A stretch of DNA of 49,690 nucleotides, from IMG/VR virus record IMGVR_UViG_3300017989_000161, positions 1 to 49,690 of that record; one strand, written 5' to 3'. Source of the DNA: a virus. The notes below the pieces were generated by a model. That model did no database searches. It was not told where the DNA came from and saw nothing but the letters and a program-made list of their open reading frames with translations. The translations under genes were made by a program, and so were the position numbers. Of this stretch, positions 8,201 through 49,399 are shown piece after piece (the first letter of the stretch is position 1; each line of letters begins with the position of its first letter).

Positions 8201-11200
8201 CATATTGCGAGTTCTCTGTCAGACCACCCTTCCCAGAATACTGTTTCAGAATCCCGATTTCTTCTTGCGTCAGCTTTCCCGGATCATTCACACGCGCAAT
8301 GATTTCACGTGCCTTGGTGTTCAACTCTTCACGGGCCTTTTTCCCTTTCATCTTCAGACCGTAATCGCTATTTCCATCATCCTTGTAGTCGGTGATGCTT
8401 TTCTTGATTTTCATGGCCGCGACGCCAAACAGCCTGACGAACACAGACTTGATGTCATCCAGGGTTTTCGCTCTTTTTATCGGGATTGACCATGACACTA
8501 TGCCGGATGTTTCAAAAATGGGATCATCCTGTTTCATTGACAGTTCTCCGCTTGCCGACTCAAAAAGGTTTCCGTTTTTATCTGAGTATTCTTCTTCCAC
8601 TTGTGCAATCGCCCGATTGATGATTTCCACCTCGGTGGGAGGTGCTGGTTTTTCGAACAAGGACTCTTGATCACGCATGGATAGATGATCCTGGAGGATA
8701 TCCGCCGCCACCTGGAGCACCCTGCCGATCCGTTTCCCGCTTCTGATATGCTTGTCAATAAACCGCGCAAACGCCTCTGTCCCTTCCGGAATATCCCCAA
8801 ACAGGCCCCCTTGGGATAAAATTTCATCGATTACGACATTCTCTTCACGGGATTTTCGCACCAGCGCCCCGGCTGCAATCGCATGTTTAGGAATATCGAT
8901 CCCGTCAAAATCTTCTGCAAACGCCCGGGCTTTCACGAAATCTTTTGCCGCAAACGTGAGGCCGTTCAGGATGTTTCGTAGATCCGGGTTGGTCTCTTCT
9001 GCTACCAGGGCCAACACAGACTCATCTTCATAGGCTTTTTGGAAAATGGCTGCCTGAATCCGGTCAATCAACTGTTTCGTGGGCCGTCCGTCCGCCGTCA
9101 AGTATCCCGCCGACTCGTTTACCCCTAATTTCTGGATATATCGTTTAATGAAAGCCGTATTAGAAGAAGCCGCTATGTTGCCGTCCTCGGAAGGCGCGAA
9201 TATGGAAAGATCCGATTCCGTGAGGGTCTCTGCGTCCATCTTGGCAACCTCAACGGGTGACATTTGCGCCAGTTCGTCTTTGTTGGCATCCCGCGCAAAC
9301 TGAGCACGATCCGCCACTTTCCCCACGCGCATACGCACCAGGACAGGCATTTCCATGTTCGCCACGTCAGTTCCGGCCATGCCGAATTCTTGAGAGTGTT
9401 GGATTAGCCATTCACGGTATTCCTTCCCCTTTTCCCCAACGCTATAGGCGGCCCGGAGCGCCATAGTTCGCCCGTTCCCGGATTCCACTGCCAAATCCGG
9501 CCCAGCAATAGGAGCACCGGTCGATGCTTGGGGGCTCGCCGCCATCCTTTCGGGATTTAGCTTGTTTGCCATCTCTTTAATTTGTAGCTGCATAGCCCCC
9601 CGGTCACGTTGCCGGGGTTGTACTTCTTGAGGATAATCCTTGGATAATGCCATGCTGTCATCATGGGAAGTCTTTAAGTCCCCTACTTCCACAATCGCGT
9701 ATTGCATCTTGACAGGCGTATTGTCGAACAAAAAAGCAGATGTCGGATTCCCTACAATGTGCTTGACTTTCGACATTGATTCTGTTAGATTTTCTGTAAC
9801 ATTATCACCGGGAGGAAAACTTATGGTTGAATATTTATTGTACGATGAAGAGTCCCCCTTCGCCTTTGATAAGGATTCTTGGGAGACATTCTCCATGGGG
9901 GGAAGCGACAGGTCTACTTGGGCTAAAGTTGATGATCCTGACATGGCTTTCAGGATCAGGTCAAACTCTCGCGTCATTTCCGAGACAGAAGCTAAAGTTT
10001 TAGCAGACGATTTGACACGGGAAGAGGAGGAAGAGCGGGCCGCTTCAGCATAAACCTTCCGACTTAAATCGTTTAATTCTTCCATCACTCCCCGCGCCAC
10101 AAACCGGGTATCCCCCTCTGCCTTTTCCGCAACCGGGGATAGCTGTCTTGTTATGTCATAAATCTCATGCCCCAACCCCTTTTCCTTGGCATCGATCATT
10201 GACTGCGTGTTTAGTTGCAACTCTGCAATGTGACCGTTTGGGAGAGAAATGTTCATGAAGATATCCCGATATCCACTTGGCAGGGGTGTTTCGTAACGGT
10301 TTTTGAGCCGGAAAACGCAGTCTTCATGTTCCAGCATCCTGAACGCCCTTGCTGTCTCATTGACAGTATCGAACACCAACGTCCCGGCCAGGATGTCTTT
10401 CAGCCCAGCAAAGGTTCCGTGCTTATCCGCATTAACCTTTTCTATGGAACGTTTCTTGCTTTTCAGCCCCGGCCTTATCATCACTTTGCCGCCGGTTTTG
10501 GCACCCCACTTTTCCATGAAATCCGTGAACAGGGGTTGCGCTTCGGCTGCCTGCTCATACAGATCGTCCATGGTCTCGACGCCCTGCTGTTTCAAGGTTT
10601 TCTTGACCTCGACAACCGCATGCCCCTCGCCAAGGTCTTTGAGTGCCTGCAATGTCGTGTTGCCGTCCAGGATCTTATATTTCCCGTTTCCCATAGCCAG
10701 GGCATGAATAGGGCCGCGCTTTTTTCCGGTCCCTGCCTGGACGTCTTTCATGTATTGGTGGGCATGTTCAAGACGTTTAGGGGTCGGCTTTTCACGCCGA
10801 ACCAATTTATCAATCGGCACGATAATGCTGCGGTCAGTGGCCTCGAAATAGGGAGACGCCTCCGCATCTGTGGGCACCCGAAACAAAATTTTGAAAATGT
10901 TAGAAATATCATAAAAACTATCGGCTTCGTCCAAGGCATATTCCCAGTTGGAAGAATCAATTACATCCGGATCTGCCATTTCAAAGATAGTCTCTGCTGA
11001 TTCCATAATGTTCCTTTGGCCTAATAGTTCTTCCACTTCCTGGAAGGTCTTGTTTTCAAAGTCGTGAAAAAATGATTGTCTTACCGAATCCTTGTTTCTC
11101 ATGAATGCTTCGATTACATCAGCGTCACTATTGAGATCGGCAGCTTTCGCCCTGACATATGCGTTAACTTCCTCCTGCGACACACATTTGAGAACCCATC

Positions 11201-13880
11201 CATCCAAATCTTTATTTTGCTGGATTCGCCATTCCGCGCCAGGGGGTTCATCGTTATTCGGGTCAATGGCCGCATAAAACACACCATGGCGGAAATCCCC
11301 CTGCCATTCCTTATCCCCTATAAGAGGCCTTGGGGCATTCATAATAATCCAGCCTTCAGGTACATCCTGCAGCCTTTCATCTTCCAGGGAGACTATGGCC
11401 TTCATGCCGGAGACCATGGATTTTACGGTAGGCTTTTGGGACCTCTCGAAGTCTGTTTCAGGGTAATGCTGCCCTTGACCGTTCACGGCAATGTATTCCA
11501 CACCCTCACTCCTGGTTATATGGGTGATTTCACCGCCCCAAAACTCAGGATTCAGGCCGCTTTCTTTCGTGGGTCGGACATAATCCCCGATATTGAAGCG
11601 GGGCCCTTTTTCCTGCCTTGCTTCTTTGAGGGTCCCGCCGTTTTGATTGACCATTTCGGCATATTTGGCAAGGGACTTTAAAAATTCAGGGTGTTTTCCG
11701 ATCCCGACCACGTTCCCGGACTCTGCATCAAATATCCGCCATGCGCCGGTGCCGGTCTTTTCATCCTTGTAAAGTTCGTAATCCACGTCATCTAAGCGGA
11801 TCGCATGCGTGACAACCGCATCTTTCAATCCCAATATGTCTTGTTTTTCGCCTACTTTTCGCAGCGGGGGAGGGCTGTTATCCAGGTCACGCAGTTTTTT
11901 GATGTTCGGGTATTCGGCTAAAACTGATTCAGGGATGTCCTTTCCCATTTGATATGCCATGGTTACTTGTTCTTCATGAGAGAGGGTCAAAAGGTCAAAC
12001 GATCCGTCACTAAACGCTGCATCAATCTCTTCTCTTGCTTCTTGCGCCGCTTTGTTAACTGCCCTTTCATTTGCCTGGCTACCGGAAGGTGAACCACTGA
12101 TAACATCCGACATTGCGATAACTGCATCCCTTTTAGCTTTTGTGTAACGATTGTAGGCAGGGAACTTATCTTTTTTAAGAGATAGATTCGTAGCAAATTG
12201 GATATTTGCAAAGTCCTCACTTGTCATCTCCCAGGGTTGTTTGGGTTTTTCTTTCAGTGATTCTCCCCTTATCGCACTCAAAACTTTTTCGATGCTTTTA
12301 ATTTCACCACTATTCAAGTCATGAGTAATGAGGGCCTTCACTTGGTCGGGGGCAATTGCTTGTAATCCAAGTAGACGTGATTGCAGTTTTTCCTTGGGTT
12401 CGAAAAGATAGTTGGGAGACAGATCACTAATCATAATTCCGCCGTCTTCGGTGTAACTGACGGGTCCGTAACCTGCTTCTTCCGCCCTATCTGCTGCTTC
12501 TACGAAAACCAACAGCGCCTCCAACGCTGCTTTCGATTCGTTATCCGGGTTGCTACCCATTTCACCACGGATTATTTTTTTCCAGGGTTTTTCGTTCCTG
12601 CCTACAATCTTGAAAAAAGATTCCTTGTCGTAATCATAAACCCCTGAATTCTCTATTTTTTTAATAGTGTTTTCGTCTAATGCATCTTGGTCTCTTAATT
12701 TTCTGATATGCGATTCCAGTTCGGAGTACAAAGCATTTTCTATCTCAAAGCCCTTGTCTTTTTTTAATGTTCGTTCCAGCTTGGAAAGAATTTTAAGGGT
12801 TTCACGAACCAGAGTGTCCCATCCAAACAACCCGTCAAAAACCACCAGGATATCATCCAGGGTTTTCGCGTTTCGAATTTGGGTTTTCCAATCACCCGCT
12901 GATTCCAGTACCGCATCCCCAACAGGCTTTTTGGTATTCCCGGCTTTTAGCCAGTCCTTGAATTCATCAACCGTCATTTCGGCCATACTCCCCAATCCCT
13001 TCCAACCTTTCTCATAATTGGATAGATAGGCTGCCTTAGCCTCTTTTTCGGTCTCGAATCCCATCAAACACTTGTGCTCGTCAAACTTCCTTGTTTCGGG
13101 ATTGATCTGGTTCACGACGAACACCTTGTCAGCGCCTTCTGGGTCCGGTCCAAGAAACACGTCTACATGGTCACCGTCATTGCCTTCACTGCGCTTGATA
13201 TAACCATAGTGGTGATGTATCTTCGAAGTCCATTTCTTCCCGTTTTGGTCTGTCCCGGATCGGTCGGACCCTGCCGGGTTCTCAATGGCGATATCCAGCC
13301 CCAAGATTCTGACATGGCCTTTCTTGTAGTTCCCAGATTTCTTTTGCGCTTCCGTGGGTTCGGGTTCATCGTTCTTCGGCGAAGACGCGGCATTATCGGC
13401 CTCACGGTCGATCTTGGCCGATTCGATAACAGGATCCTCTTCCGGTTCCACAACCAAACCCGGCCACCCGGCCAGGTACCAGGTTTTTCGACCCCTATGC
13501 CATGCCAAAAGCGAGATAAAACCCTGCCATATGATCTCTATGCGTTTGTTCCCGGGAGGACCGTACTTCCGCTTTATGCGGCCTCTCGCAAGGGATTCCA
13601 CGGCCTGCATAAGATCATCTTCCGTGGAAGCACCCCCCTTAGCAAGAATATTAGCAATGCCGTACCCGTCCATATAGTCGGAGGATTTAGAACCCGCTCG
13701 CCCCCACAAAAAGGCGATCCATCCCGTATCCGGCCGGAACATGGCATCTACATAGTTTGCCTGCCTGGCCAGGACCCACTGAAGATTGTCCTGAGCAGGC
13801 ATGACCATTTCGGTAGGCTTGAGGCCCTGTAGGTATGAGGCCCCTTCAAAAATTTGGGTCGCTTTTGGGCTAACAAACAT
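2220..13880 (-). CDS. Giant polyvalent protein: nuclease-InPase-ParB-RelA/SpoT-DdrB-methyltransferase-SNF2 helicase (DarB-like)
   Basis: 3886 residues, SD GGAG, in one unbroken frame. Regions in order, from visible motifs: about 60-145, a Barnase-EndoU-ColicinE5-like nuclease domain (LARGRIKRK..., KTWYLAGWPG); about 190-310, an InPase-like domain (HHHYGYI, GDHVDVFLGPDP); about 1020-1100, ParB-like (KILDGNTTLQAL); about 1110-1240, RelA/SpoT synthetase-like (SGYRDIFM...AELQLNT); about 1400-1720, DdrB-like ParB (LAVESGNGRTMALRAAY); about 1830-2080, N6-adenine methyltransferase (DPSTGAGVFSG, TNVPFGD); about 2600-3330, SNF2 helicase (FDVGLGKT, DECHEF, LLSATPVTNSP, QQRNGRGVRQGN); then coiled coil. 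This matches the 'polyvalent protein' concept and P1 DarB, which enters the cell with the DNA and protects it from restriction. Virion packaging here is inferred from the late-gene context. NVPF replaces the classic NPPF/Y, which I recall as usual in this large helicase-methylase family. Confidence 0.9.
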   Translation of the reverse strand: MFVSPKATQIFEGASYLQGLKPTEMVMPAQDNLQWVLARQANYVDAMFRPDTGWIAFLWGRAGSKSSDYMDGYGIANILAKGGASTEDDLMQAVESLARGRIKRKYGPPGNKRIEIIWQGFISLLAWHRGRKTWYLAGWPGLVVEPEEDPVIESAKIDREADNAASSPKNDEPEPTEAQKKSGNYKKGHVRILGLDIAIENPAGSDRSGTDQNGKKWTSKIHHHYGYIKRSEGNDGDHVDVFLGPDPEGADKVFVVNQINPETRKFDEHKCLMGFETEKEAKAAYLSNYEKGWKGLGSMAEMTVDEFKDWLKAGNTKKPVGDAVLESAGDWKTQIRNAKTLDDILVVFDGLFGWDTLVRETLKILSKLERTLKKDKGFEIENALYSELESHIRKLRDQDALDENTIKKIENSGVYDYDKESFFKIVGRNEKPWKKIIRGEMGSNPDNESKAALEALLVFVEAADRAEEAGYGPVSYTEDGGIMISDLSPNYLFEPKEKLQSRLLGLQAIAPDQVKALITHDLNSGEIKSIEKVLSAIRGESLKEKPKQPWEMTSEDFANIQFATNLSLKKDKFPAYNRYTKAKRDAVIAMSDVISGSPSGSQANERAVNKAAQEAREEIDAAFSDGSFDLLTLSHEEQVTMAYQMGKDIPESVLAEYPNIKKLRDLDNSPPPLRKVGEKQDILGLKDAVVTHAIRLDDVDYELYKDEKTGTGAWRIFDAESGNVVGIGKHPEFLKSLAKYAEMVNQNGGTLKEARQEKGPRFNIGDYVRPTKESGLNPEFWGGEITHITRSEGVEYIAVNGQGQHYPETDFERSQKPTVKSMVSGMKAIVSLEDERLQDVPEGWIIMNAPRPLIGDKEWQGDFRHGVFYAAIDPNNDEPPGAEWRIQQNKDLDGWVLKCVSQEEVNAYVRAKAADLNSDADVIEAFMRNKDSVRQSFFHDFENKTFQEVEELLGQRNIMESAETIFEMADPDVIDSSNWEYALDEADSFYDISNIFKILFRVPTDAEASPYFEATDRSIIVPIDKLVRREKPTPKRLEHAHQYMKDVQAGTGKKRGPIHALAMGNGKYKILDGNTTLQALKDLGEGHAVVEVKKTLKQQGVETMDDLYEQAAEAQPLFTDFMEKWGAKTGGKVMIRPGLKSKKRSIEKVNADKHGTFAGLKDILAGTLVFDTVNETARAFRMLEHEDCVFRLKNRYETPLPSGYRDIFMNISLPNGHIAELQLNTQSMIDAKEKGLGHEIYDITRQLSPVAEKAEGDTRFVARGVMEELNDLSRKVYAEAARSSSSSRVKSSAKTLASVSEMTREFDLILKAMSGSSTLAQVDLSLPPMENVSQESLSKAKGDSSSYNKYSTISFPPGDNVTENLTESMSKVKHIVGNPTSAFLFDNTPVKMQYAIVEVGDLKTSHDDSMALSKDYPQEVQPRQRDRGAMQLQIKEMANKLNPERMAASPQASTGAPIAGPDLAVESGNGRTMALRAAYSVGEKGKEYREWLIQHSQEFGMAGTDVANMEMPVLVRMRVGKVADRAQFARDANKDELAQMSPVEVAKMDAETLTESDLSIFAPSEDGNIAASSNTAFIKRYIQKLGVNESAGYLTADGRPTKQLIDRIQAAIFQKAYEDESVLALVAEETNPDLRNILNGLTFAAKDFVKARAFAEDFDGIDIPKHAIAAGALVRKSREENVVIDEILSQGGLFGDIPEGTEAFARFIDKHIRSGKRIGRVLQVAADILQDHLSMRDQESLFEKPAPPTEVEIINRAIAQVEEEYSDKNGNLFESASGELSMKQDDPIFETSGIVSWSIPIKRAKTLDDIKSVFVRLFGVAAMKIKKSITDYKDDGNSDYGLKMKGKKAREELNTKAREIIARVNDPGKLTQEEIGILKQYSGKGGLTENSQYEYYTPTHVAEGVWDAILANGFENGNILDPSTGAGVFSGTKPKGAIMTGCDLDSTGSKIAQLLNPEDSIQNRPFEQLVMETPDDTFDGCITNVPFGDARGACAHDDPAYKNEKRIERYFILRALDKIKPGKLACFVAPVNIVGAKGGKWTQFRTAVSKKAEFLGAHKLPSKTFAAQGTDTVVDIVVFKKHPRDLLEKIDSIHLETLQEASVLWDQFISGEYWKGEGRKYIMGKYTPKVEGDRWSRETVDGDIDNEGLKRKLAIRFSSRIDWDALEIAEPVVKNYAEGDRRIINSEEYELQAGDWVKIHKAGSGDGMVLEAAKYGAKTYGELESILSSPKTALQLTADQAFASWKAFPDLMSPFHAQSIEFAMSQPRAEFREQVWRGSVIGGMIGRLKAAAEGDDATDADAMRSELQDIVVAEVEKYGHPKNNKGLVLTGESSRMFGLFLNAMDETGNFSDLLSGQVANDHMEFDVTNLRSIVEHLNIREGIENIELEDVQKLYAGNRKIESLGDIAEDDAVAVTPEGMIMPLGRYCSGDIYPKLQEMTKAMADETDPRITAKYQKQIDYIMKRRRSTKSEDIDFGLRQKWFSRKYVVDFLRDNGYPSIRYGVWKKIEEEDPVTGEKTLKDQFVEDPTDPFGKFIGYETASGWMKQLNKYLNGKNVTSSKKDTKEAYQGNARALEEQFQVWMQQHGDILELVERYNQKFNGYLEHEYGGVGLKLKGVSPQVKLHDFQSAAIQRLSEEGRGCLAFDVGLGKTFSALGLYAYNKQMGRSKKTCIVVPNAVLANWYHSSKKFLGNHDGVLTVGFKPKTDKDGNIKREVVKDERGNPKKNKHTGELEYRDALVRTDSKEQVWEDMWKIPQGNYSLVIMTKEKYGTIPMRPSTKRGFANKMVDRALISEKQADKAVNENSQGAAAGGGRERSRSYQGDKDRLNLAQKYSDEGTQKKGELPFFEDMGFTDVIVDECHEFKNSYEAGENTKQIAYLPTAPSAQRALDMAMKMNYLRGANGGRGAYLLSATPVTNSPFEIYNILSLCCPIDEFERFGIYTVDDFVRVFGYIEIVDKVKVSGDVASVEGLTGFQNLDGLRNLYHKYTIMKNAQDVDLPLPPHDEHNDMVDLTDEQQAVYDELRERAKAAAKPGSEESMFTVMRDMDRVTTDMDLYHHTMTFHFAVKDKDKVDAIIDKMPNAITAKIVEEGERITQNIPFEHSTRMEGDTYVLVVPEDFENLIVSKFPEMHIDEADVGHPITPKYAKLVERLRKHFEEKGKQLVFTEEKSQHDKIRRLIVNEVPLWKDVIGIINADTANGAKLQQISNLYNSGKLKIIVANKKAEVGVNLQKGTTAVHHLTLPWTPASIQQRNGRGVRQGNTAEHIDIYYYLGKGSFDQYRLDLLKKKSNWMTELFKGKGARAENANALDQDDYVDMLDADPEEAKKHRMEKLAKKAAERKAREAMISVNSLQVLASASHTLQNLDATKEADRAKLEKNIQVREEKLRKYEVRVADIYEGEKIRAKLRGLIETTKRSLDNAKNRLSSLDVDYAKKKTTLEARVKQVSGMLRHRAQKEGLPFDESLIDHPENAVASLTGVVVAKGDTYEILTADDNDHAAPRLRQMYGGRLLQITEVNPKQKWIKFESVTNYINIPQEYQEGSGSVTPIGMWPAKDMKKVSYSEDEIALKKMMSQEWHYIDLVEGKLSKELFLDHVHEINIARQDDCLVRTNDGLDAMGFSEIEDKRQIVYPEPQDENFRKEVCEMFLEYQRKNLVKGSVLYVMNVLFGSDWRQTAMSYGTMATETQLRTAAAEALRYVMDELLPDDDGSVMIVKARMNKLNEKYHEGLALAQKNLAGAVDNLDALDDIWMQLQHIEIDKMMLEKERREEEEKRKAFEDLKKDPNYKEVPANVADAFQNLGVTVKTNMTNMVAPGFKGRRGTQYEPFARWFLQDVHAKSGKLFRAKDILKTRYRASFFKNADDNFQGAWWHIPSSVDLKEVYELLE

Positions 13881-20937: not shown

Positions 20938-22566
20938 TTATGCGATACGCCATCCCGCAGGGTCTCTCACCAACCGGAATGCGGCGTATTTAAGGTCACA
21001 AATCATATCCTCCGAAAGTCCCATGATTTTCATACCATTCCGGCCTATAGTGAGGTAGTGGGTATCAAACGATGCTCCTACATCTATGATTTCAACTGCA
21101 TCCCCCACGTCCGACTCACCGCTTGATGGTAGCGTACAGGTAAAAGCGCTCCCGCTGGTATCTGCTAAAATTCGATCCCCCACCGCAATATTCAGGTTGG
21201 ATGAGGCCTGCCGGATCGTTTTGAGCGCCCCTCGTTCCCTGATCTCTGAGTGGGAATTGGCGCTACTGTTGTGAGCTGCGATATCGGTCCCGATTTTGTT
21301 TTGGATAAAGGTGTGGGCAATCTCGCTTGCGTTGTGAGCAGCTATATCAGCATCTATCTCATCTGAAACACCACCAAATAGGTCGGAATGGGCATCCACA
21401 TCGACGTTGTGGGCAGCAATACTTTCAGGTATCCCGTGGGCATCGGTCAAAGCATTGTGACTTGAAATGTCAGAATCAATTTCAGCCCTGATATCTTGAT
21501 GGGCGATCTCATTCACATTATGAGCCGCGATATCAGAGTCGATTTCACCGCGAATGTCTGTATGAGCCGTACCATTCGAGTTATGCGCCAAGATGTCATT
21601 ATCGATCTCGGTTTGCAGGTTCCCAATTTTTGTAGCCAGATCATGGGAATCCGGGTCGGCGTTGTGGGCACCGATATCGGTCCCAATTTTATTTTGGATA
21701 AAGGTGTGGGCGGCCTCATCGGCGTTGTGAGTACCGATATCGGTCCCGATTTTGTTTTGGATAAAGGTGTGGGCAATCTCGCTTGCGTTGTGAGCAGCTA
21801 TGGCCTCATCAATATCGTCATCCCATGGCGGCGGGTCCCCGCCAACACCACCGTGGGCGTCCGGGTCGTTGTTATGCGTCTCGATGTCTGTATCGATTTC
21901 CGTGCTGATATTGGCGCGAATAGGCGAGTGAGCGGTTTCATCATTATTGTGGACCGTGATATCATCATCAATCTCTTGACGAATCAGGGGATGGGCGTCT
22001 CCGTCCGCATTGTGTGCCGCGATATCATCATCTATCTCAGCACTGATATTGATTTGGATCGGTTCATGAGACTCGGGGTCCAGGTTGTGAGCTTCCAGAT
22101 CAACATCTGTGAGGTAGTGATCCCCGTCAATCGTAACCACCACATTCGTGGCATTTGAAACCACAACTATCAGATCAATAATTTGCTCAACGGCTGTGGA
22201 GCCGCCGCCAGCAGGTAGATAATCAGGGTTGGAGGCATATGCGACAGCATAAAGAATCTCTGCTTCTTCGTCGTCCGGGTCTTCGGCAAACAAGCCGATT
22301 TCACGAATGAAAAAACCGGTTTCCATCCCCTCGTTAGTCAAGGTTCCCCGTATCCGTGCCGTGCCGTCCCCGACGACCGTGGCCTCCGTTGGAGACACAG
22401 ATTTCCGTTCGTTTGCGAGTTCCGTATAGCCCTCAAGGTCACCACCGGGGTCTAACGCCCCATCCCCCAATGCGATCCTTACAAAGTTCAACTCTTCGCC
22501 CGTCTGGACAAGGGCCTGGAGGTTTCGCCCTACATCCGTTAATACCATACCCCCGAAATCTGCCAT
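20938..22566 (-). CDS. Long tail fibre with tandem HN-AH repeats
   Basis: 542 residues, GGAG site. Residues 1-150 look like the N-terminal, baseplate-attaching domain of phage fibre proteins of the tail-collar (DUF3751-like) type: MADFGGMVLTDVGRNLQALV, then FVRIALGDGA and FIREIGLFA. Residues about 155-440 are some 13 tandem units of about 20-25 residues of the form I(A/G)AHN-x-(D/S)-x(2-3)-AH-x(2)-I-x(3)-I. The final about 90 residues are a non-repeated beta-rich cap. The repeated His pairs suggest a slender trimeric shaft, perhaps metal-binding as in T4 gp37 (HxH sites). It lies between gpI-like and small tail genes. Confidence 0.85.
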   Translation of the reverse strand: MADFGGMVLTDVGRNLQALVQTGEELNFVRIALGDGALDPGGDLEGYTELANERKSVSPTEATVVGDGTARIRGTLTNEGMETGFFIREIGLFAEDPDDEEAEILYAVAYASNPDYLPAGGGSTAVEQIIDLIVVVSNATNVVVTIDGDHYLTDVDLEAHNLDPESHEPIQINISAEIDDDIAAHNADGDAHPLIRQEIDDDITVHNNDETAHSPIRANISTEIDTDIETHNNDPDAHGGVGGDPPPWDDDIDEAIAAHNASEIAHTFIQNKIGTDIGTHNADEAAHTFIQNKIGTDIGAHNADPDSHDLATKIGNLQTEIDNDILAHNSNGTAHTDIRGEIDSDIAAHNVNEIAHQDIRAEIDSDISSHNALTDAHGIPESIAAHNVDVDAHSDLFGGVSDEIDADIAAHNASEIAHTFIQNKIGTDIAAHNSSANSHSEIRERGALKTIRQASSNLNIAVGDRILADTSGSAFTCTLPSSGESDVGDAVEIIDVGASFDTHYLTIGRNGMKIMGLSEDMICDLKYAAFRLVRDPAGWRIA

Positions 22567-25185: not shown

Positions 25186-27963
25186 TTAAATCCTGTCATA
25201 CGCCATTAGGGTCAACATCGAGTCGTCAAAATCTGATTTGATATTCGTTTTAGGTGCTATAGGTTGCTGGTTCGGTTTTTCAAAGGGATACGACGGTTTT
25301 TTTGCAGTGTTCTCCAGTGTTCGGACAAGCCGGTTGATAGCGGCATTATCAACGTTTTCAGGTGCCTTCTTGACATTGGCAGCAAGCTCTTTTGCCCTGG
25401 ATCGTATGGGGAGATCCCCCTGTATCTGCTCGATTTTGGGCAGCGGCCTTACATGCTCAATCGTAGGGATGGGATCGCTTTGCACTTGCGGTTTCGCGAC
25501 CGCTTGTGGGGATTCAATTGGTTTAGCAGTCTTGACCTGGGCTTTTTTGTCTTTTTTCCCCGTAAACCAGCCCCAAATGGATTTGACACCTTCTGTTACA
25601 GTAGCAATGGGAGCGGTTATAGTCTTTTCGATAATCCCCTTTTCGCCTTTTTTGGTGTCTCCTTTTTTGGTGTCTCCTTTTTTGGTGTCTCCTTTTTTGG
25701 TGTCTCCTAAGCCAAAAAAATCTCCGATTTTGGATCCAAACCCATGTATGCCTTTGGCGATATCAGATGTATCGGCATCGACGCCAAGCATACTAAGGAG
25801 GCCTGTGCCAAGCCCCCCCATGTCTAAGACGTTTGCCAGGGCGGATGATGTTTTTTGACCTGTTGTCGCATCCTGCCCTTTCTGTAAACCAAATGCCCGC
25901 TCCTGCATACCTCGGTCATGCCATCCTTGAAAGGCATCAAACCCGGCCATGCCAACAGCGGCTATTTGGCCAAGAACTGGAACCGCGCGAAGTGCCCCGC
26001 CTGCCAGCTTCCCGCCCATTTTCAATGCCGCCTTGCCACCCAGCTTGGTTGCGCCTCTGCCCCCTAATTTCGTTGCTATTTTGGTGGAGGGCTTTGCTAT
26101 AGGTTTGGCCGCCTTTGGGGCCGCTTCCGGGATGATATTGGTCGTTCGCGATGCTGCGCTTGTCACGGCTTGTTCTGCGACCATATCCGGGATAGATGAT
26201 TCACCGCCCCCGAAAAGTCCTCCCAATAACCCCCCTCCAAGACCGCCAATCCCTAAACCACCAATCCCTAAACCACCAATCCCTAAACCACCTGATATAA
26301 GGCCAGCAATTTTTCCAAACTTACCTCCCCCACGAAGACCCATCATCCTACGAGACAGGGACGGAGTCGGGGTCCTTTGTATTTTTGGGACCTTTATTTT
26401 CCCCATGGCCCCTGGCCGTTTTCGTTCGACCAGTTCGATGGACTTCGGGACCTTAACAGCCTTCGGAACCTTAACAGTCTCCGGGACCTTAACAGCCTTC
26501 GGAACCTTAACAGTCTCCGGAACCTTAACAGTCTCCGGAACCTTAGCAGCCTTCGGAACCTTAGCTGGCTTCGGGATCTTAGCAGCCTTCGGAACCTTAG
26601 CTGGCTTCGGGAGCTTAGCAGCCTTCGGAACCTTAACAGTCTCCGGAACCTTAGCAGCCTTCGGGACCTTAACAGCCTTCGGAACCTTAGCTGGCTTCGG
26701 AACCTTAGCTGGCTTTTCTACGTAAGCTTTCTTTGCGATAGGCTTCGGGACCCTTGGAGTTGTCTTCGTTCTGGGTACCGTCTTGCTTGAACGTCTCTCC
26801 GTTCTCCTTCGGGATAAATCCCGAAATATCCCGCCGTCGATACCCTTTACAGCTTTAATCAATTCCTTGTGGTGGGTTTCGTCTTCGCGTTCAGTGTCCT
26901 TCAGAGCATCGACAGTCTGTATCCCTAATTTGGAAAGCTGTTCAGTGACGCGCTTATGGTCTTCAATATTTTGCGCGTTCTTCTGCTCTATTATGCGGGT
27001 TTTGGCTTCACTTTTAGCTGTAGTTTTTCCTGCTTTGATGGGTATGTACTTCCCCCGACTATCCCTCAGCCTGCCTGCGGCGTCCTTTTTGACACCATCT
27101 GGCAACGAATCTTCCTTCGATATTTTTCGTTTTCGTAAAAGACTTGAGGCGGCACCCTTTAGCCTTCCGAAATCGGTATTATCTGCTACCTCCTTAGCTT
27201 CCTTGACAGCCCCCCACAAAGGCCCGCCGATAGCTGTCCCCGCAATATCTGTGATATCCTGATTTTCAAGGGCATCCCGGGCAATCCCCATGCCTGTAGT
27301 GCCCGCGCCTGCCAATACAGTCTTGATCCCTGATACTATGGATTTCCGGTCCTTAACTCGTTCTGATTCATTCTTGCGGGTTTCAAGAGCTGTTTCGCTT
27401 TTTGATCGTTCGATATTGGTATGATGGCCAGTATTATTCTCTGCCGTTTTCGGTCGTGGCTTGACAGATTTCGGTAATCCGGTCTTACTCGATAATCCCT
27501 TACTCTTTGTGGCTTTTGACTCTCGAACAGTGTCAGCCTTTGCAGCATCCTGGATTTCTTTAGATAGGACAGCTTTCGCTTTTTGGAGATCCTTCGTATT
27601 CCTGCTACGTTCAATTTTACGGGTTTTTTCTGCCCCGGCACGGTTTGTCTTTTCAATGTATTGATTTTCGGTCTTAGCAGTAGGTGTTATAGCAGTAGCC
27701 TTTTTGGCTTTAGGATGATCTGAGAGTTGAATGAGTGTCCCGGTAGGTCGTTTTTTGATTAGATGCGAAATATCGCGGGTGTCCTTGCGGATATCGACCA
27801 GCACACCATAAACATTAGCATTGGAGGAAATGATGGAATCCAGCTTGTCAGCGAATGCAACAAGTTGATTCCCGCTTTCATAATCGCGTGAGGCCTCTTC
27901 CGGCATGGCCGGGATAGCGACATCCTGATGAACAATAATTGTTGCGTCTTTGATAGCAGCCAT
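25186..27963 (-). CDS. Tail tape-measure protein
   Basis: 925 residues. It follows the tail-assembly chaperone and precedes the baseplate genes, the usual place of a tape measure. The N-terminal 400 residues are charged and helical. About 418-515 is a run of 6-residue units (KVPKAA, KVPETV and variants), about 16 copies. About 555-590 is Gly-rich (LGIGGLGIGGLGIGGLGG), followed by a hydrophobic Ala/Gly stretch (KMGGKLAGGALRAVPVLGQI) that could span a membrane. About 760-780 has four KKGDT units. By the rule of about 1.5 angstrom per residue the tail would be near 140 nm. The start ATG lies 1 nt after the TGA of the frameshift extension. Confidence 0.8.
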   Translation of the reverse strand: MAAIKDATIIVHQDVAIPAMPEEASRDYESGNQLVAFADKLDSIISSNANVYGVLVDIRKDTRDISHLIKKRPTGTLIQLSDHPKAKKATAITPTAKTENQYIEKTNRAGAEKTRKIERSRNTKDLQKAKAVLSKEIQDAAKADTVRESKATKSKGLSSKTGLPKSVKPRPKTAENNTGHHTNIERSKSETALETRKNESERVKDRKSIVSGIKTVLAGAGTTGMGIARDALENQDITDIAGTAIGGPLWGAVKEAKEVADNTDFGRLKGAASSLLRKRKISKEDSLPDGVKKDAAGRLRDSRGKYIPIKAGKTTAKSEAKTRIIEQKNAQNIEDHKRVTEQLSKLGIQTVDALKDTEREDETHHKELIKAVKGIDGGIFRDLSRRRTERRSSKTVPRTKTTPRVPKPIAKKAYVEKPAKVPKPAKVPKAVKVPKAAKVPETVKVPKAAKLPKPAKVPKAAKIPKPAKVPKAAKVPETVKVPETVKVPKAVKVPETVKVPKAVKVPKSIELVERKRPGAMGKIKVPKIQRTPTPSLSRRMMGLRGGGKFGKIAGLISGGLGIGGLGIGGLGIGGLGGGLLGGLFGGGESSIPDMVAEQAVTSAASRTTNIIPEAAPKAAKPIAKPSTKIATKLGGRGATKLGGKAALKMGGKLAGGALRAVPVLGQIAAVGMAGFDAFQGWHDRGMQERAFGLQKGQDATTGQKTSSALANVLDMGGLGTGLLSMLGVDADTSDIAKGIHGFGSKIGDFFGLGDTKKGDTKKGDTKKGDTKKGEKGIIEKTITAPIATVTEGVKSIWGWFTGKKDKKAQVKTAKPIESPQAVAKPQVQSDPIPTIEHVRPLPKIEQIQGDLPIRSRAKELAANVKKAPENVDNAAINRLVRTLENTAKKPSYPFEKPNQQPIAPKTNIKSDFDDSMLTLMAYDRI

Positions 27964-31816: not shown

Positions 31817-33676
31817 TTATTTGATCAGCCGCGGCTGTCCTGCAATACGCCGTGCGCTGCCTGTAGGGCAAAAAGACCAATCAACCAGCCAGAGATCGAT
31901 CTCCTGCTGAGTCACAGTAAATTGATAGGGGCTGTCACCATCGATATCCGGTTCGCGTGGGGACGAAAGCGCCTCCGATGTCACGAGCTCGTCCAAAATG
32001 GCTTTAATCCCCTTCGCGAGGCCGCGATAGGTAATCCCGTCCGGTTCATGTTTAAATTGGTTTGCGAGCTCCACAAATCGATGATCGATATAATTGGCAA
32101 TCCGGTTGACCCACACGAAACGGCTATATGACTGTAAGAAAAAAACTGTCAGCGAATCGTCAATCACGAGGCCTCCGTCATCCCATGCAATAACCGGGTT
32201 GATTCGACCGGTATAGAAATCATCTCTGTTTAAATTATCACCGGGGAAAAGAGGTGTGACTCCTACTCGTTCCAGCCTTCCCCGCTTTACTCCAGCCGGA
32301 GAATAATGAATGCCAGGCGTGGATCCGGTAAAATTCGCATCTCCTTGGGCGCAAGCCGCTGCAACCGCGCCGGAGGCCCCCCATGCGGTTTTCCCGCCAT
32401 ACCACTCGTCGGTGGCCCCAAACGGACAATAATAGCAAGAGGCCTGTCTGCTGGAGAGAGAGGTAGACTTCAACCAGAGCAGGGCGGCCGCCGCATCCAA
32501 GTAATAGGGCACGTCAAAGAAAAAATTGACATGACGCGCTTCGGCTATGTCAATGCAATTGGCAAGGACCGACTCGTCATAATTTCCGGCCGCAAACAGC
32601 AAAAACATCGGGATGGATTCATCTCGGAACATATCCCAAGCATCTATCCAATCCTGTGTCTCGGGTTCGCCGCCATTCGACCCCCCGGCAAAGGCGGTTT
32701 TACTGACCTCATCCAGAGTATCCTGGATTTCGTCCCACTCAAGGCTTACACCCAAATCACACCTAAACCGGTCACTTTGCTGTTGTAGAACCGACTCGAT
32801 AAAGTTTGGTCGGCCCATATCATCCCGGTCAGTCTCAACAATCCCGACCACATACGACTCCAGCAGATATTCTTCACCAGAAATCGTCTTATCATAGAAA
32901 TTGATTTTAAACCGCTTGTCTTGATTGGTGAGCAATCGCCAGTTCGGGCTATCATCGGGGTCAGGAGCTTCTTCCTCGGAGGAATGATCATTGCGGCATA
33001 GATACTCATTACCATCTGGGAATTCTGCCACATCATTTTCGCTATAGATGGTTTCAGCCTCCCAATCACCCTTGTGATTGATAAGCTTTTCGATCTCGAA
33101 AGACCTGTTAGTACTGGGGTCCCCATCAACCGGCCAAACTTGCAACAGATAACCATCACCAAGGGCCAATGTCGCACCGTAGGCATGGTTATCCTGTTCT
33201 TCGACTCCGGGATACTCTTCCCAGTTGACCCCCGGGACTTCCACAGTTGGGGCCGGGTCATCACTGGTATGAGCCAAGATGCAAATTAACTGTCCATCAG
33301 CAACAGTGACAACATCGTTTGCAAGATATGCCGTCTCTGTGGCCCAATCCCCTTTATCATCGATGTGCTTTATAGCTAATGAAGGGAATCGTGCATCATC
33401 CGCGACAACCCTGACCACATTGACATAAGCACAATCTTGAGCCGCGTCATTCACATGCCGGAGACCCTCCATATGCTGCCCCGCTTTGGCCGGGTACGGC
33501 ATGCCAAAATAGTCCTCCCAATTGTTGTAGGTTACCTGGACAATCTCACCGACAGGCCCTTTTGACGCACGTACAACCGTAGCACCAATAGTCGTGGGGC
33601 CGCCGCCGGTTTTAAATGTTTGATCAATTAAATCCAGAACGGTGATTTCCGCAGCATTCGTGATAATATTCTTCAT
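31817..33676 (-). CDS. Contractile tail sheath protein with two inserted carbohydrate-binding-like modules
   Basis: 619 residues, GGAGG site. The N-terminus has the sheath opening (GGPTTIGATVVRASKGPVGE, then NNWEDYFGMPY and AQDCAYVNVVRVV). The C-terminal half has WVNRIANYIDHRFVELANQF and a final beta-strand. Residues about 107-156 (DKGDWATETAYLANDVV... ICILAHTSDD) and 201-250 (HKGDWEAETIYSENDVA... YLCRNDHSSE... NWRLL) are two copies of a small 'W..Y...D.V...g..y.c...H.s....P....W' module, like CBM5/12 (chitin-binding-type) domains. A third copy is in baseplate J. The sheath contracts around the tube; the modules should project outward. Confidence 0.88.
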   Translation of the reverse strand: MKNIITNAAEITVLDLIDQTFKTGGGPTTIGATVVRASKGPVGEIVQVTYNNWEDYFGMPYPAKAGQHMEGLRHVNDAAQDCAYVNVVRVVADDARFPSLAIKHIDDKGDWATETAYLANDVVTVADGQLICILAHTSDDPAPTVEVPGVNWEEYPGVEEQDNHAYGATLALGDGYLLQVWPVDGDPSTNRSFEIEKLINHKGDWEAETIYSENDVAEFPDGNEYLCRNDHSSEEEAPDPDDSPNWRLLTNQDKRFKINFYDKTISGEEYLLESYVVGIVETDRDDMGRPNFIESVLQQQSDRFRCDLGVSLEWDEIQDTLDEVSKTAFAGGSNGGEPETQDWIDAWDMFRDESIPMFLLFAAGNYDESVLANCIDIAEARHVNFFFDVPYYLDAAAALLWLKSTSLSSRQASCYYCPFGATDEWYGGKTAWGASGAVAAACAQGDANFTGSTPGIHYSPAGVKRGRLERVGVTPLFPGDNLNRDDFYTGRINPVIAWDDGGLVIDDSLTVFFLQSYSRFVWVNRIANYIDHRFVELANQFKHEPDGITYRGLAKGIKAILDELVTSEALSSPREPDIDGDSPYQFTVTQQEIDLWLVDWSFCPTGSARRIAGQPRLIK

Positions 33677-34091: not shown

Positions 34092-35687
34092 TTAAGACGA
34101 CTCAATTTCCAGGTCCATAAAGTACTCACGACCGTCAAACGGTTGTAAGTCCCTGTAGGCCTGGCCCCACAGGGTATTCCGATATTTAAGGTCGGTTTGG
34201 ATTGCATGTCTGAACGGCATGGGAGGAATGGCATCGCCGGTAACGTACCCGGCCTCACCCACGCCGCGGCCTTTGGCATAACACAGGCACTTATATTGGG
34301 ACTTTTGCGGATCCTCGAAGACATCCCACATGCCGAAGAGTTTACCAATATAGTGCGGTTGGGGTATGCGCCTATAGCCCGCGGCTGGCACGAAAAAAGG
34401 CTGCTTCATGGCTTTAAAAAGCGTAGCACTCTTTGAATCGGCTACGATCCCTACTAACCCAGAAGTACCGGTACGTTCCATCAGGACAGCATCAATTTCA
34501 AGCAGCGTTTCGCGTACTGTTTCGTAATGCTCTTGGAAATACAGACCAGTAGGCACCACCATGCTCCAGGCCCGCTCGCCCTTGGAGTAAAAGTACAGGT
34601 CGCGGAGGATCTTCCGATCACGGTCAGCGGCTAAAACATTACGCATTGCGGCCATGGCCATGGAGTCAGCATCCATAGAAAACTCACGACGTAGTGCCCA
34701 CAACGCCTGCAGTGTGGTACTGGCTGAAATGGCGTTCTCGTGCGGATAAATCACGCGGGAATCCATCTCATGGTTGATTACGGGGATCAAAGTAGGATCC
34801 TTTTCAATATCTACATCAAATCCGACATGAATCTCGATACCGTCCGCCGGGCCGGTACTAAAGATCGGGTCGATATTGCCGGTTGCGTAATCCACCGTTC
34901 CTGTCACTGTTATTGTGGTTTCCCCTACGACAAACGATCCATGTAGATTCCCCGCGCCGTCGTCTTTTGCAACGATATTGTGGTCATGAAAAATCTTGAT
35001 GGACTGCTTTTTAAATGGGTAAACTCCAGAGAATATGGTTTCGGAATCAAACTCGAAATCCCCTGTAAGCGTGGGGGTCGCCTCGCTATCAGCCTCTTTG
35101 ACCAAATGGCGTTGGTCCATCGATGCATACTGGCCATTGAAAGAGTGATCAATTTTTTCTCCCTGTGTCAAGTCCCCAAAAGTAGACCCGGCCACTCGCC
35201 AGACTTTGAAAATTTCACTCTGGTTGTAATGCCCCGGGATATGCGACACCATCCGACTGGTAATCGACATTAAGGCAACTGGCAGGATCAATGCGATCAT
35301 CCGGTCCCGCATCAAAATCCCTTCTGTGGTCTCCAGATTAGATGACTCCAGAACCATATTGTCCGGGCCATTTCCAGCAGAGATTTCAATTCCGTTCTGG
35401 ATTGCCTGGTAAGCACTGGCTAACATTTCATCAGATGGCATTTCACCATATTGCCGCTGGTAAGGTATTAGGGCATTGGCCGCAATGCGGGCTACAGTCC
35501 CTTTACCCTTGCCGATAGATTCAAAAACGCTACCTTCGACAGATCTGTCCAGGGCCTCAACAAGTTGGTTTTCGTTTGAGATAACCTCCCCGCTATCGCC
35601 GTCGATGATCGGGGTGATAATGGCATGGCGCATGGAAGCAGCCTTCTGACCGATCTCGACCATTCGTTTTTTATATTTTTCGGGCAT
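34092..35687 (-). CDS. Major capsid protein (likely)
   Basis: 531 residues, SD GAGGAG. The N-terminal segment is helical, as in capsid proteins with a delta-like region. Then come TTEGILMRDRMIALILPVAL and VSHIPGHYNQSEIFKVWRVA (the approach to an HK97-type E-loop), a central beta-rich insertion, and a C-terminal half with LRDLYFYSKGERAW and a P-domain-like helix ALWALRREFSMDADSMAMAA. The closing PFRHAIQTDLKYRNTLWGQA, then YRDLQPF, is also capsid-like. Length and position support this. Its leader holds a CRISPR-repeat-like hairpin. Confidence 0.7.
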   Translation of the reverse strand: MPEKYKKRMVEIGQKAASMRHAIITPIIDGDSGEVISNENQLVEALDRSVEGSVFESIGKGKGTVARIAANALIPYQRQYGEMPSDEMLASAYQAIQNGIEISAGNGPDNMVLESSNLETTEGILMRDRMIALILPVALMSITSRMVSHIPGHYNQSEIFKVWRVAGSTFGDLTQGEKIDHSFNGQYASMDQRHLVKEADSEATPTLTGDFEFDSETIFSGVYPFKKQSIKIFHDHNIVAKDDGAGNLHGSFVVGETTITVTGTVDYATGNIDPIFSTGPADGIEIHVGFDVDIEKDPTLIPVINHEMDSRVIYPHENAISASTTLQALWALRREFSMDADSMAMAAMRNVLAADRDRKILRDLYFYSKGERAWSMVVPTGLYFQEHYETVRETLLEIDAVLMERTGTSGLVGIVADSKSATLFKAMKQPFFVPAAGYRRIPQPHYIGKLFGMWDVFEDPQKSQYKCLCYAKGRGVGEAGYVTGDAIPPMPFRHAIQTDLKYRNTLWGQAYRDLQPFDGREYFMDLEIESS

Positions 35688-35730: not shown

Positions 35731-35762
35731 GTTTCAATCCACGCCCCTATACGAGGGGCGAC
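35731..35762 (-). CRISPR. Solitary type I-C-like CRISPR repeat in the capsid-gene leader (candidate RNA anti-CRISPR)
   Basis: Read on the minus strand, these 32 nt begin GTCGCCCCTCGTAT and end AGGGGCGTGGATTGAAAC. This is the form of a type I-C CRISPR repeat, with its stem and the ATTGAAAC end. The stem CGCCCCT/AGGGGCG (7 bp) closes a 5-nt loop. There is no second repeat nearby, no cas genes and no spacer phase, so it is not an array. It is co-oriented with the late genes, 43 nt before the capsid ATG. A second hairpin (CGGAAA/TTTCCG, 35762-35778) touches its 5' side. Phage solitary repeats are known to act as RNA anti-CRISPRs that occupy Cas proteins. That role here is inferred. Confidence 0.8.
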
Positions 35763-47749: not shown

Positions 47750-48073
47750 CTATAAACCCATTCCCTCTTTCGTGAGCTCCGAGAGGGTAATAATCGTATC
47801 TACCAACCGCTTGTAACGCTGCCTTTGAATTAAAATTACCTGTCCATAATTCAATAAGTTATCTAATTTATCTAAAGTGAGTCCCGTCTCTCCGCTGCGG
47901 AACCGGGAGAGGGCTGCTTTGTCAATATCTAACTCGTTGGCCAGGGTGGTAAGGCCCACCTCGTCAACAAGCTCGAATACCGCGTCAGTGATGGTTGTGG
48001 CGGATCGAGACATGGTGGCGTCAATTCCCTTCAATTTTTGTTGTTTGTTTTTGTTTGGCATAATCCGTACCAT
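47750..48073 (-). CDS. HTH transcription regulator (CII/Cro-like)
   Basis: 107 residues from the first ATG; starts at 48061 or 48013 are also possible, since no good ribosome binding site is seen. A helix-turn-helix lies at LTTLANELDIDKAALSRFRS and GETGLTLDKLDNLLNY, of the lambda-repressor-like class. It lies in the early operon as the third small regulator, where CII-like proteins usually lie. It likely controls early or lysogenic promoters. Confidence 0.7.
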   Translation of the reverse strand: MVRIMPNKNKQQKLKGIDATMSRSATTITDAVFELVDEVGLTTLANELDIDKAALSRFRSGETGLTLDKLDNLLNYGQVILIQRQRYKRLVDTIITLSELTKEGMGL

Positions 48074-48082
48074 GAAAACAAA

Positions 48083-48313
48083 TCAAGCCCACGGGAAAAA
48101 CCCCAGGGCTTGAGAAACGGCATCCTCGACTTTCTGAGATGTTCGAGAACCCGACAAAACCATGTTAACATATTGTGTGGTGCAGCCCGCTTCCCGGGCA
48201 ATATCGCCCTTGCGTATCCCGGACTCTTTTAACAGGAGTGAGATAATGTTTGAGAACGTAAATCCTGTTGTTGTCAGGAATGAAAACGCGAGACGGTTTT
48301 TTCTTGTTGTCAT
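48083..48313 (-). CDS. Small HTH regulator, divergent to the CRISPR-repeat unit (Aca-like position)
   Basis: I place the start at the ATG at 48313 (AGGG 5 nt upstream), giving 76 residues. A longer frame to 48385 begins FQSTPPHRGAT, which is just the antisense translation of the CRISPR repeat and not protein. The HTH is IISLLLKESGIRKGDIAREA, then GCTTQYVNMVLSGSR. Its start region overlaps the rightward promoter of the repeat unit, so it could repress that promoter, as Aca regulators do for anti-CRISPR genes. Alternatively it is an ordinary early Cro-type regulator. Confidence 0.65.
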   Translation of the reverse strand: MTTRKNRLAFSFLTTTGFTFSNIISLLLKESGIRKGDIAREAGCTTQYVNMVLSGSRTSQKVEDAVSQALGFFPWA

Positions 48314-48334
48314 TTCAACCCTGTGGTATAGAAT
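48307..48334 (+). promoter_or_regulatory. Sigma70-type promoter for the solitary CRISPR repeat
   Basis: TTGTCA (48307-48312), 16-nt spacer, TAGAAT (48329-48334): five of six matches in both boxes. The start would be near 48341, about 10 nt before the repeat. It points rightward, opposite to the early operon. Confidence 0.6.
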
Positions 48335-48345
48335 ATTTATTGTGC

Positions 48346-48513
48346 CTACTGTCGCCCCCCTATGCGGGGGCGTGGATTGAAACACGGTTCCGCAACCGAA
48401 AGCTTATGGGTGGAGGGGGTGTGGCCCGTGCAAGTACACAGTACCCGCCGGTTACGGCTCCCGGCGGCGAACGTGGGTAAGCCGACCACGGTTACTTCCG
48501 AGAAATTCGTCAT
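48346..48513 (-). CDS. Doubtful 55-residue ORF antisense to the repeat unit
   Basis: An ORF starting at the ATG at 48513 with a moderate AGGGGG site encodes MTNFSEVTVVGLPTFAAGSR, then NRRVLCTCTGHTPSTHKLSV. Its last dozen residues (CFNPRPRIGGRQ) are the antisense of the CRISPR repeat. It has two Cys and two His but no recognisable fold. It could be a real small early gene whose end was fixed by repeat insertion, or noise. Confidence 0.3.
   Translation of the reverse strand: MTNFSEVTVVGLPTFAAGSRNRRVLCTCTGHTPSTHKLSVAEPCFNPRPRIGGRQ
48351..48383 (+). CRISPR. Solitary type I-C-like CRISPR repeat with its own promoter (candidate RNA anti-CRISPR)
   Basis: The 33 nt begin GTCGCCCCCCTATG and end CGGGGGCGTGGATTGAAAC. 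The form is that of a type I-C repeat: CGCCCCC/GGGGGCG stem of 7 bp, 6-nt loop, and the ATTGAAAC end. A good promoter lies about 10 nt upstream on the same strand. A small hairpin (CGGTT/AACCG, 48385-48398) follows at once. There is no second repeat and no cas gene. The transcript would be antisense to the early operon. The Racr role (occupying Cas5d/Cas7 of a host I-C system) is inferred from precedent. A one-repeat mini-guide is the alternative. Confidence 0.85.
48445..48467. other. 7-bp GC-rich hairpin downstream of the repeat unit
   Basis: CCGCCGG and CCGGCGG pair around a 9-nt loop. No U-run follows on either strand, so it is not an intrinsic terminator. It could form the 3' end of the rightward RNA or pause the early leftward transcript. 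Confidence 0.5.
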
Positions 48514-48545
48514 TAAGGAGTCCCCCTCTAAATAAACCCCACCCA

Positions 48546-48779
48546 TTATTTATGCAGCTCCGGGTCTGGTAACGAATCCAAATGTCTAAATAACCGCTCC
48601 AGCAGCCTAATTGAGCCAGGCCCGTTCCTGTACCCCGTGAGGGCCATACAGAGAGAGTTGCTGTTGACAGGTTCCTCCGGGGTGGCTATGGCCGCCGCCA
48701 GGGCCTTTTGAGATCCCTGGCCGTCAAGACTCAGATCCACCAGAAGGTGCTTTATTTGTTTTCTAAGATCGCTTTCCAT
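48546..48779 (-). CDS. Cro-like early regulator (likely)
   Basis: 77 residues. It is the first gene behind the leftward promoter opposite the repressor, the Cro position. Contains QKALAAAIATPEEPVNSNSL and LTGYRNGPGSIRLLERLFRH, which can be read as a small HTH. The AGAGGT site better fits a 13-codon ORF (48752-48793, MVRTLWKAILENK) in another frame that overlaps this start, so translation may be coupled. A GTTCGAAC palindrome (48783-48790) lies in the leader. Confidence 0.55.
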   Translation of the reverse strand: MESDLRKQIKHLLVDLSLDGQGSQKALAAAIATPEEPVNSNSLCMALTGYRNGPGSIRLLERLFRHLDSLPDPELHK

Positions 48780-48839: not shown

Positions 48840-48868
48840 ATGCTACACGAAGCGTGAATTGTTGTCAA
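48840..48868 (-). promoter_or_regulatory. Leftward early promoter (PR-like)
   Basis: On the minus strand TTGACA (48868-48863, perfect -35), 17-nt spacer, TAGCAT (48845-48840, four of six). It drives the early operon and lies in the gap before the repressor, so the CI protein should act here. Nearby symmetrical sequences (ACGAAGCGT, CGATCG) are operator candidates. Confidence 0.6.
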
Positions 48869-48880
48869 GGAAATAATCAC

Positions 48881-49399
48881 ATGCTGAATATGATGGAAGT
48901 GCTAAACCGCGTTTCTGAGGTAATAGGGCTGACTGCCAATAAGGATATTGCTACTGAATTAAATGTCGAACCGAACGTATGTTCAAACTGGAAAACCCGA
49001 AACACTGTCCCATGGGAAAATTTGTTCCGTTTTTGCATAAAGCGTAGCGTCTCTATGAACTGGCTCCTAACCGGCAAAGAGCGCACCGAACCCGAGCCCC
49101 TCGAACCCGAGACCAGCCAGGCCATAGATGCCGTGAAGGAGATCATGGCATCAGAAAATGATTATGCAAAGGCAGCCCTGGCGTCGAACTTGATAGCGTT
49201 CAAGGCAATGGTTGCGGCCGAGAAAGATGCTGCTAAGAAGTTGACAAATAAAGAAAAAGAGATAAAAAAGAAGAACGAACAGATCGAAGGATTGGAAAAG
49301 CGCGTTGACAAGTTGGAAAAAGAACGTACGCATATTAGGTATATAAACGACCCTCCTGCAATCGCTGCTACCGGAACGGAGAATGGTACCGATACATAA
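48881..49399 (+). CDS. CI-type phage repressor (Bac_CI_repr domain)
   Basis: Start chosen at the ATG at 48881 with AGGA upstream; 172 residues. Residues about 1-65 have the CI-repressor HTH: NKDIATELNVEPNVCSNWKT, then RNTVPWENLFRFCIKRSVSM and NWLLTGKE ('W..R..iP...l..f......s..WLltG'). The C-terminal half is a long, Lys-rich coiled coil and there is no S24-type self-cleaving domain, so SOS-driven autocleavage is not expected; induction must work otherwise. It is divergent to the Cro-like gene. Confidence 0.8.
   Translation: MLNMMEVLNRVSEVIGLTANKDIATELNVEPNVCSNWKTRNTVPWENLFRFCIKRSVSMNWLLTGKERTEPEPLEPETSQAIDAVKEIMASENDYAKAALASNLIAFKAMVAAEKDAAKKLTNKEKEIKKKNEQIEGLEKRVDKLEKERTHIRYINDPPAIAATGTENGTDT

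Follow-up and report, generated by a model that had tools for sequence, protein, structure and literature searches.

Solitary type I-C CRISPR repeats as candidate RNA anti-CRISPRs in a phage genome

The window analysed in this work is the entire IMG/VR record IMGVR_UViG_3300017989_000161, a phage sequence of 49,690 bp, and it carries near its right end a solitary repeat of the kind found in type I-C CRISPR (clustered regularly interspaced short palindromic repeats) arrays. This repeat, designated R1 (GTCGCCCCCCTATGCGGGGGCGTGGATTGAAAC; plus strand, 48351-48383), spans 33 nt and is composed of a 7-bp stem, a 6-nt loop and an 11-nt 3' tag. R1 is unique in the window at up to three mismatches, where shuffled sequences predict 0 occurrences, and folds into the canonical 7-bp I-C hairpin followed by a single-stranded 11-nt 3' end (-15.4 kcal/mol, z -2.5), in agreement with a preliminary description that had reported a 33-nt I-C repeat with a 7-bp stem. 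It is intergenic, lying between two minus-strand open reading frames (ORFs): one at 48083-48313, encoding a small helix-turn-helix regulator of 76 aa (PHROG transcriptional repressor, E 4e-6), and a 77-aa ORF at 48546-48779 with no family match. The next gene on the strand of R1, at the right end of the window (48854-49399, plus strand), encodes a CI-type repressor (Pfam Phage_CI_repr, E 6e-10).

A promoter-like site on the plus strand (48307-48334), consisting of TTGTCA (48307-48312) and TAGAAT (48329-48334) separated by 16 nt, ends 16 nt upstream of R1, just as had been described. It is a consensus match only, agreeing with sigma-70 at 10 of 12 positions, and its -35 hexamer shares bases with the start codon of the divergent ORF at 48083-48313. 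Four sites of this 10/12 type occur in the 1.6-kb R1 region against 2.4 expected and, because such sites are common there by chance, the promoter-like site taken alone constitutes weak evidence. Also present, as anticipated, is a small hairpin (CGGTT-CCGC-AACCG; 48385-48398, plus strand) directly 3' of R1, which has no T-run and is not an obvious terminator. Since no terminator or transcript 3' end is visible downstream of R1 on the plus strand, the R1 RNA may be long, and a long transcript may run antisense to the 48546-48779 ORF, towards the repressor gene.

The preliminary description had further stated that there was no second repeat, and on this point it must be amended. A search of the window with the 12-nt tag yields two exact matches, R1 and a second solitary type I-C repeat, R2 (GTCGCCCCTCGTATAGGGGCGTGGATTGAAAC; minus strand, 35731-35762), with a length of 32 nt, a 7-bp stem, a 5-nt loop and a free 11-nt tag. 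R2 is located between two genes, in the leader of the major capsid protein gene (34092-35687, minus strand), 43 nt upstream of the ATG and ahead of the ribosome-binding site; no promoter was identified upstream of it. The two repeats differ in their loops and at the seventh stem pair, where R1 has C-G and R2 a compensated U-A that preserves the pairing. The missed repeat corrects the earlier account, yet it strengthens its case. R1 and R2 were also considered as parts of a viral CRISPR mini-array, a candidate that was rejected: a mini-array needs at least two repeats flanking a spacer, and R1 and R2 are single, on opposite strands and 12.6 kb apart.

The assignment to type I-C is based on the arrays of the Nitratidesulfovibrio vulgaris plasmid pDVUL01, to which R1 aligns over 33/33 nt with 93.9% identity (48 bits). 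In N. vulgaris DP4 the array adjoins a complete I-C cas operon (cas3-cas5c-cas8c-cas7c-cas4-cas1c-cas2), and R1, R2 and the N. vulgaris repeat all fold to the same 7-bp stem. The SRUFinder criteria for solitary repeat units (SRUs; PMC10651486) ask for at least 90% identity and at least 90% coverage to a known CRISPR repeat, with a 41.1-bit limit, and for an intergenic position whose 100-bp surroundings contain no further repeat, whole or partial. R1 lies above the identity and coverage thresholds (with BLAST settings that differ from those of SRUFinder), and R2, for which the best full-length match in plasmids, to the same arrays, is 87.5% identical (41 bits), falls just under the 90% and 41.1-bit limits. 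Both repeats are intergenic, and local alignment of each to its own flanks detects no full or partial repeat in the 100 bp on either side. One criterion for an RNA anti-CRISPR (Racr) is a predicted promoter within 250 bp upstream; for R1 the candidate is the promoter-like site, of a kind common by chance in this region, and for R2 none was identified. Judged from its sequence, R1 is a real type I-C repeat and not a product of chance. The earlier statement that cas genes are missing holds for the two families that were searched individually, Cas5d and Csd2 (Cas7), neither of which has a homologue in the window or in its sole close contig, IMGVR_UViG_3300029267_003234. This twin contig differs from the window by one base over the 29.3 kb they have in common, and counts as the same phage rather than as an independent relative.

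Repeats of this kind form a class in IMG/VR. A stem-constrained pattern, GTCGCCCC(5-10)GGGGCGTGGATTGAAAC, occurs in 33 stretches and a looser one, GTCGC(11-17)GCGTGGATTGAAAC, in at least 119; the reversed-tag control of the looser pattern returns 0 stretches, which excludes chance at the class level. Subtracting arrays, contig edges and duplicates from the matches listed leaves 97 solitary copies, on which the class figures rest, genes being called with a simple ORF rule. Because the search pattern prescribes the tag, its conservation in the class is not independent evidence. Class stems vary widely in sequence and the hairpins covary: at the four pairs lying outside the pattern, 3.68 of 4 are paired, versus 2.70 (standard deviation 0.06) when the arms are shuffled among copies. 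Where long ORFs of the same direction lie on both sides, 35 copies are oriented with the genes and 11 against them (p 5e-4). Of the 97 copies, 15 have a promoter-like site (at least 9/12) in the 80 nt upstream, against 4 with such a site on the opposite side (p 0.014); the rate for random stretches is 5%. In 24/97 copies the 70 nt downstream contain an ORF start preceded by a ribosome-binding site, an arrangement that random placement would give for about 9 and that is seen on the opposite side of 4/97. The genes behind these leader copies, where recognisable, match portal, sigma factor, tail assembly chaperone, tail lysin, head decoration, endolysin and SbcC-like families, some of them weakly. 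Two or three separate copies, in some cases differing in their stems, are present in several viruses. Among the copies just ahead of gene starts, such as R2 and those of IMG/VR loci L018, L055, L057, L070, L086, L088 and L104, an 'aaacaaac'-like linker often separates the tag from the ribosome-binding site. The known phages of INPHARED contain no R1-like repeat; for R2 they yield nothing beyond partial matches of 20 nt in Klebsiella phages (E about 3).

Taken together, the two repeats, their folds and positions, their solitary state, their similarity to I-C arrays and the class pattern make it fairly probable, in our assessment, that R1 and R2 are candidate Racrs against a type I-C system; it is from these observations that we infer their transcription, its timing, the binding of Cas proteins and the ensuing inhibition. 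The preliminary description had arrived at a similar reading for a single repeat, with Cas5d as the likely first binder. It fits the array match beside an I-C operon, the solitary state, the intact hairpin and tag, the promoter-like site and the lack of Cas5d and Csd2 homologues, but the repeat is not the only one, and the RNA has no discernible terminator or 3' end. In type I-C systems, Cas5d cuts the repeat to generate an 11-nt 5' handle and a 21-nt 3' handle (PMC5965380), and the choice of Cas5d as first binder agrees with this biology. Following the 11-nt handle rule from the same source, a Cas5d cut is predicted after position 48372, with the handle TGGATTGAAAC staying on the downstream RNA. 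Each repeat, once transcribed, would fold into the I-C hairpin, and the RNA derived from such a lone repeat, with a handle but a guide devoid of meaning and no second repeat to close it, would occupy Cas5d, and probably Cas8c and Cas7 too, to no purpose. Transcription of R1 would start at its own promoter, within the immunity region and separately from the late genes; R2, carried within the capsid mRNA, would be supplied in a large late dose. If this holds true, the phage bears two RNA inhibitors of type I-C immunity acting at different points of its genetic programme.

Several known systems provide a frame for this proposal, and R1 and R2 can be regarded as candidate new members of the Racr/SRU group on the strength of their sequence. 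In type I-F systems, a lone repeat traps Cas6f and Cas7f and competes with true CRISPR RNAs (crRNAs) in a dose-dependent manner (PMC10651486). RacrIF1 and the other SRUs of that study resemble R1 in that a lone phage-borne repeat comes after a promoter-like site and is expected to compete with crRNA for Cas proteins. They differ by subtype: Cas6f keeps the upstream part of the RNA, whereas type I-C repeats are processed by Cas5d, which leaves the handle on the RNA downstream, and hence the trapped RNA would differ between RacrIF1 and R1/R2. RacrIC1, from a Bifidobacterium pseudocatenulatum prophage (PMC10651486), is closer in that it is a solitary I-C repeat in a phage without cas genes, likewise carried on a longer transcript (as we infer for R1 and R2) and likewise, for R1 and R2 as candidates, an inhibitor of type I-C immunity. 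RacrIC1 inhibits I-C interference, as demonstrated experimentally (PMC10651486, Camara-Wilpert 2023), and shares a bicistronic RNA with acrIC5, from which it is separated by 11 nt on the downstream side, whereas R1 and R2 are known from their sequence, have no recognised acr gene, and form a pair whose loops differ, with R2 preceding the capsid gene. By analogy with RacrIF1 and RacrIC1, R1 and R2 would be expected to tie up Cas5d, and perhaps Cas7 and Cas8c as well. The N. vulgaris repeat has the stem and tag of R1, but it sits in long spacer arrays beside cas genes, whereas R1 and R2 are single and have other loops. Viral CRISPR mini-arrays, finally, also place host-like repeats in viral genomes without cas genes, but they contain one or two spacers enclosed by repeats and are directed at related viruses, as opposed to the single R1 and R2, for which no target was found.

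The class data invite a broader and more tentative proposal, possible but doubtful in our view: that phage mRNAs, those for capsid, portal, tail and lysis genes among others, carry type I-C repeats in their 5' leaders, in many cases with several in one genome, where they would act as Cas5d or Cascade decoys or as Cas5d-controlled leaders, amounting to a distributed, mRNA-borne RNA anti-CRISPR. The pattern of lone repeats before phage genes suggests that ordinary viral messages can serve as CRISPR decoys, and there are hints that this embedding in mRNA leaders is the less familiar part of the arrangement. The main text of the Racr paper (PMC10651486) does not contain the terms 'UTR', 'leader' or 'untranslated', which by itself does not establish priority for this pattern.

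A number of observations weigh against a Racr role for R1 and R2. To the position of R2 just under the SRUFinder limits must be added the evidence from relatives, none of which, when independent, retains R1 or R2; in those with 54-64% identical capsid proteins the tag is absent altogether. The GTDB species genomes contain no exact repeat with the TAT-loop forms, and the cognate host array was not found among them. When 80 nt are folded, a rival structure pairs the R1 handle with bases downstream; the 215-nt fold retains the R1 hairpin. Cas proteins sitting on R2, moreover, could mask the ribosome-binding site that serves the phage's own capsid gene.

In a different explanation, host Cas5d would cut or coat the RNA and thereby alter the expression of the downstream phage gene, the repeat being a sensor or switch rather than mainly a decoy. 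Such a Cas5d-responsive leader would act on the capsid gene through R2, as its place 43 nt before the ATG would allow, and on the immunity genes through R1, by antisense or read-through. The excess of class copies shortly ahead of gene starts (24, where chance would give about 9 and the opposite side shows 4) and the multi-copy viruses with repeats ahead of several genes speak in its favour. However, R1 is not the leader of a nearby gene, roughly three quarters of the copies lie outside such leaders, and the genes behind the leader copies are of many kinds, with no single regulatory logic seen. We consider it unlikely as the main function of R1 and R2.

The repeats might also be non-functional remnants, pieces of host arrays acquired by the phage and not yet lost. 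Given that no independent relative keeps either repeat, purifying selection at these sites cannot be shown, but decay sits poorly with two complete, different copies that have intact pairing, one of them in the tight leader of an essential gene, and with a class whose stems covary and whose orientation is biased; this origin is improbable.

Rather more remote is the notion that each repeat and the bases following it form a crRNA-like guide by which host I-C Cascade would be led to a rival phage, to a gene of the host or to a phage promoter. Cas5d cutting would yield the correct 11-nt handle, and both viral mini-arrays and Cas-dependent repression by repeat-like RNAs offer precedent, but there is no second repeat to close the crRNA. 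Even the best non-self matches within the window do not exceed the level of shuffled guides, and an inverted match (47888-47905 and 48385-48402), entertained as a possible target, was discarded with whole-guide matches at chance level. In IMG/VR, the R1 pseudo-spacer matches only the twin contig, and that of R2 matches one family of AT-rich phages at 22-24/35 positions, with flanks of CAC or TAC type instead of TTC, an unsuitable protospacer adjacent motif (PAM). No target with a suitable PAM was found in the window, the twin extension or IMG/VR. That the repeats are DNA sites at which the phage integrates into host CRISPR arrays, or recombines with them, is highly improbable, considering that there are two separate copies, one in a gene leader, that the class favours gene leaders and the gene strand, both needless for a DNA site, and that the capsid and terminase are akin to those of P1, which is a plasmid prophage.

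Other identities were considered for the R1 region and discarded. The 66-aa minus-strand ORF at 48346-48546 has non-coding-like codon usage, the stability of a larger structured RNA at 48336-48550 is no better than that of shuffles (z -0.32), no Rfam family reaches its gathering score (CRISPR-DR9 scores 23.2 bits, below the 45-bit cut-off), and no tRNA was found. The minus-strand ORF crossing R1 (listed as 48546-48384) has FNPRPRIGG at its C-terminal end, which is what an I-C repeat reads as in antisense, and databases may list such antisense-repeat ORFs as spurious proteins.

The P1-like character of the phage emerges from tblastn and protein comparisons. The 531-aa capsid protein (PHROG 1014, with a weak Pfam Gp23 match) shows 30% identity over 98% to P1 gp23 by tblastn, and the terminase is 35-38% identical to PacB of P1-type phages. 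Capsid relatives in genomes are confined to Vreelandella, Vibrio and a Kiloniella metagenome-assembled genome and, at 43-44% identity, are too distant to name a host. Also reminiscent of P1, and in particular of its Dar system, is a single ORF of 3,886 aa (2220-13880, minus strand) with matches to DarB-like antirestriction, DNA methyltransferase and helicase families. The twin contig (L163) extends about 14 kb beyond the right end of the window, and the ORFs of this extension, judged by eye, resemble an SbcC/D-type nuclease pair, a helicase and an ASCH-like protein. Self-comparison of the window reveals off-diagonal internal DNA repeats in coding regions at 26439-26715, 25643-25708 and 21268-21801 (minus strand), some with a period of about 36 bases, and residues 111-140 of the tail sheath protein (31817-33676, minus strand) match the chitin/carbohydrate-binding module CBM_5_12.
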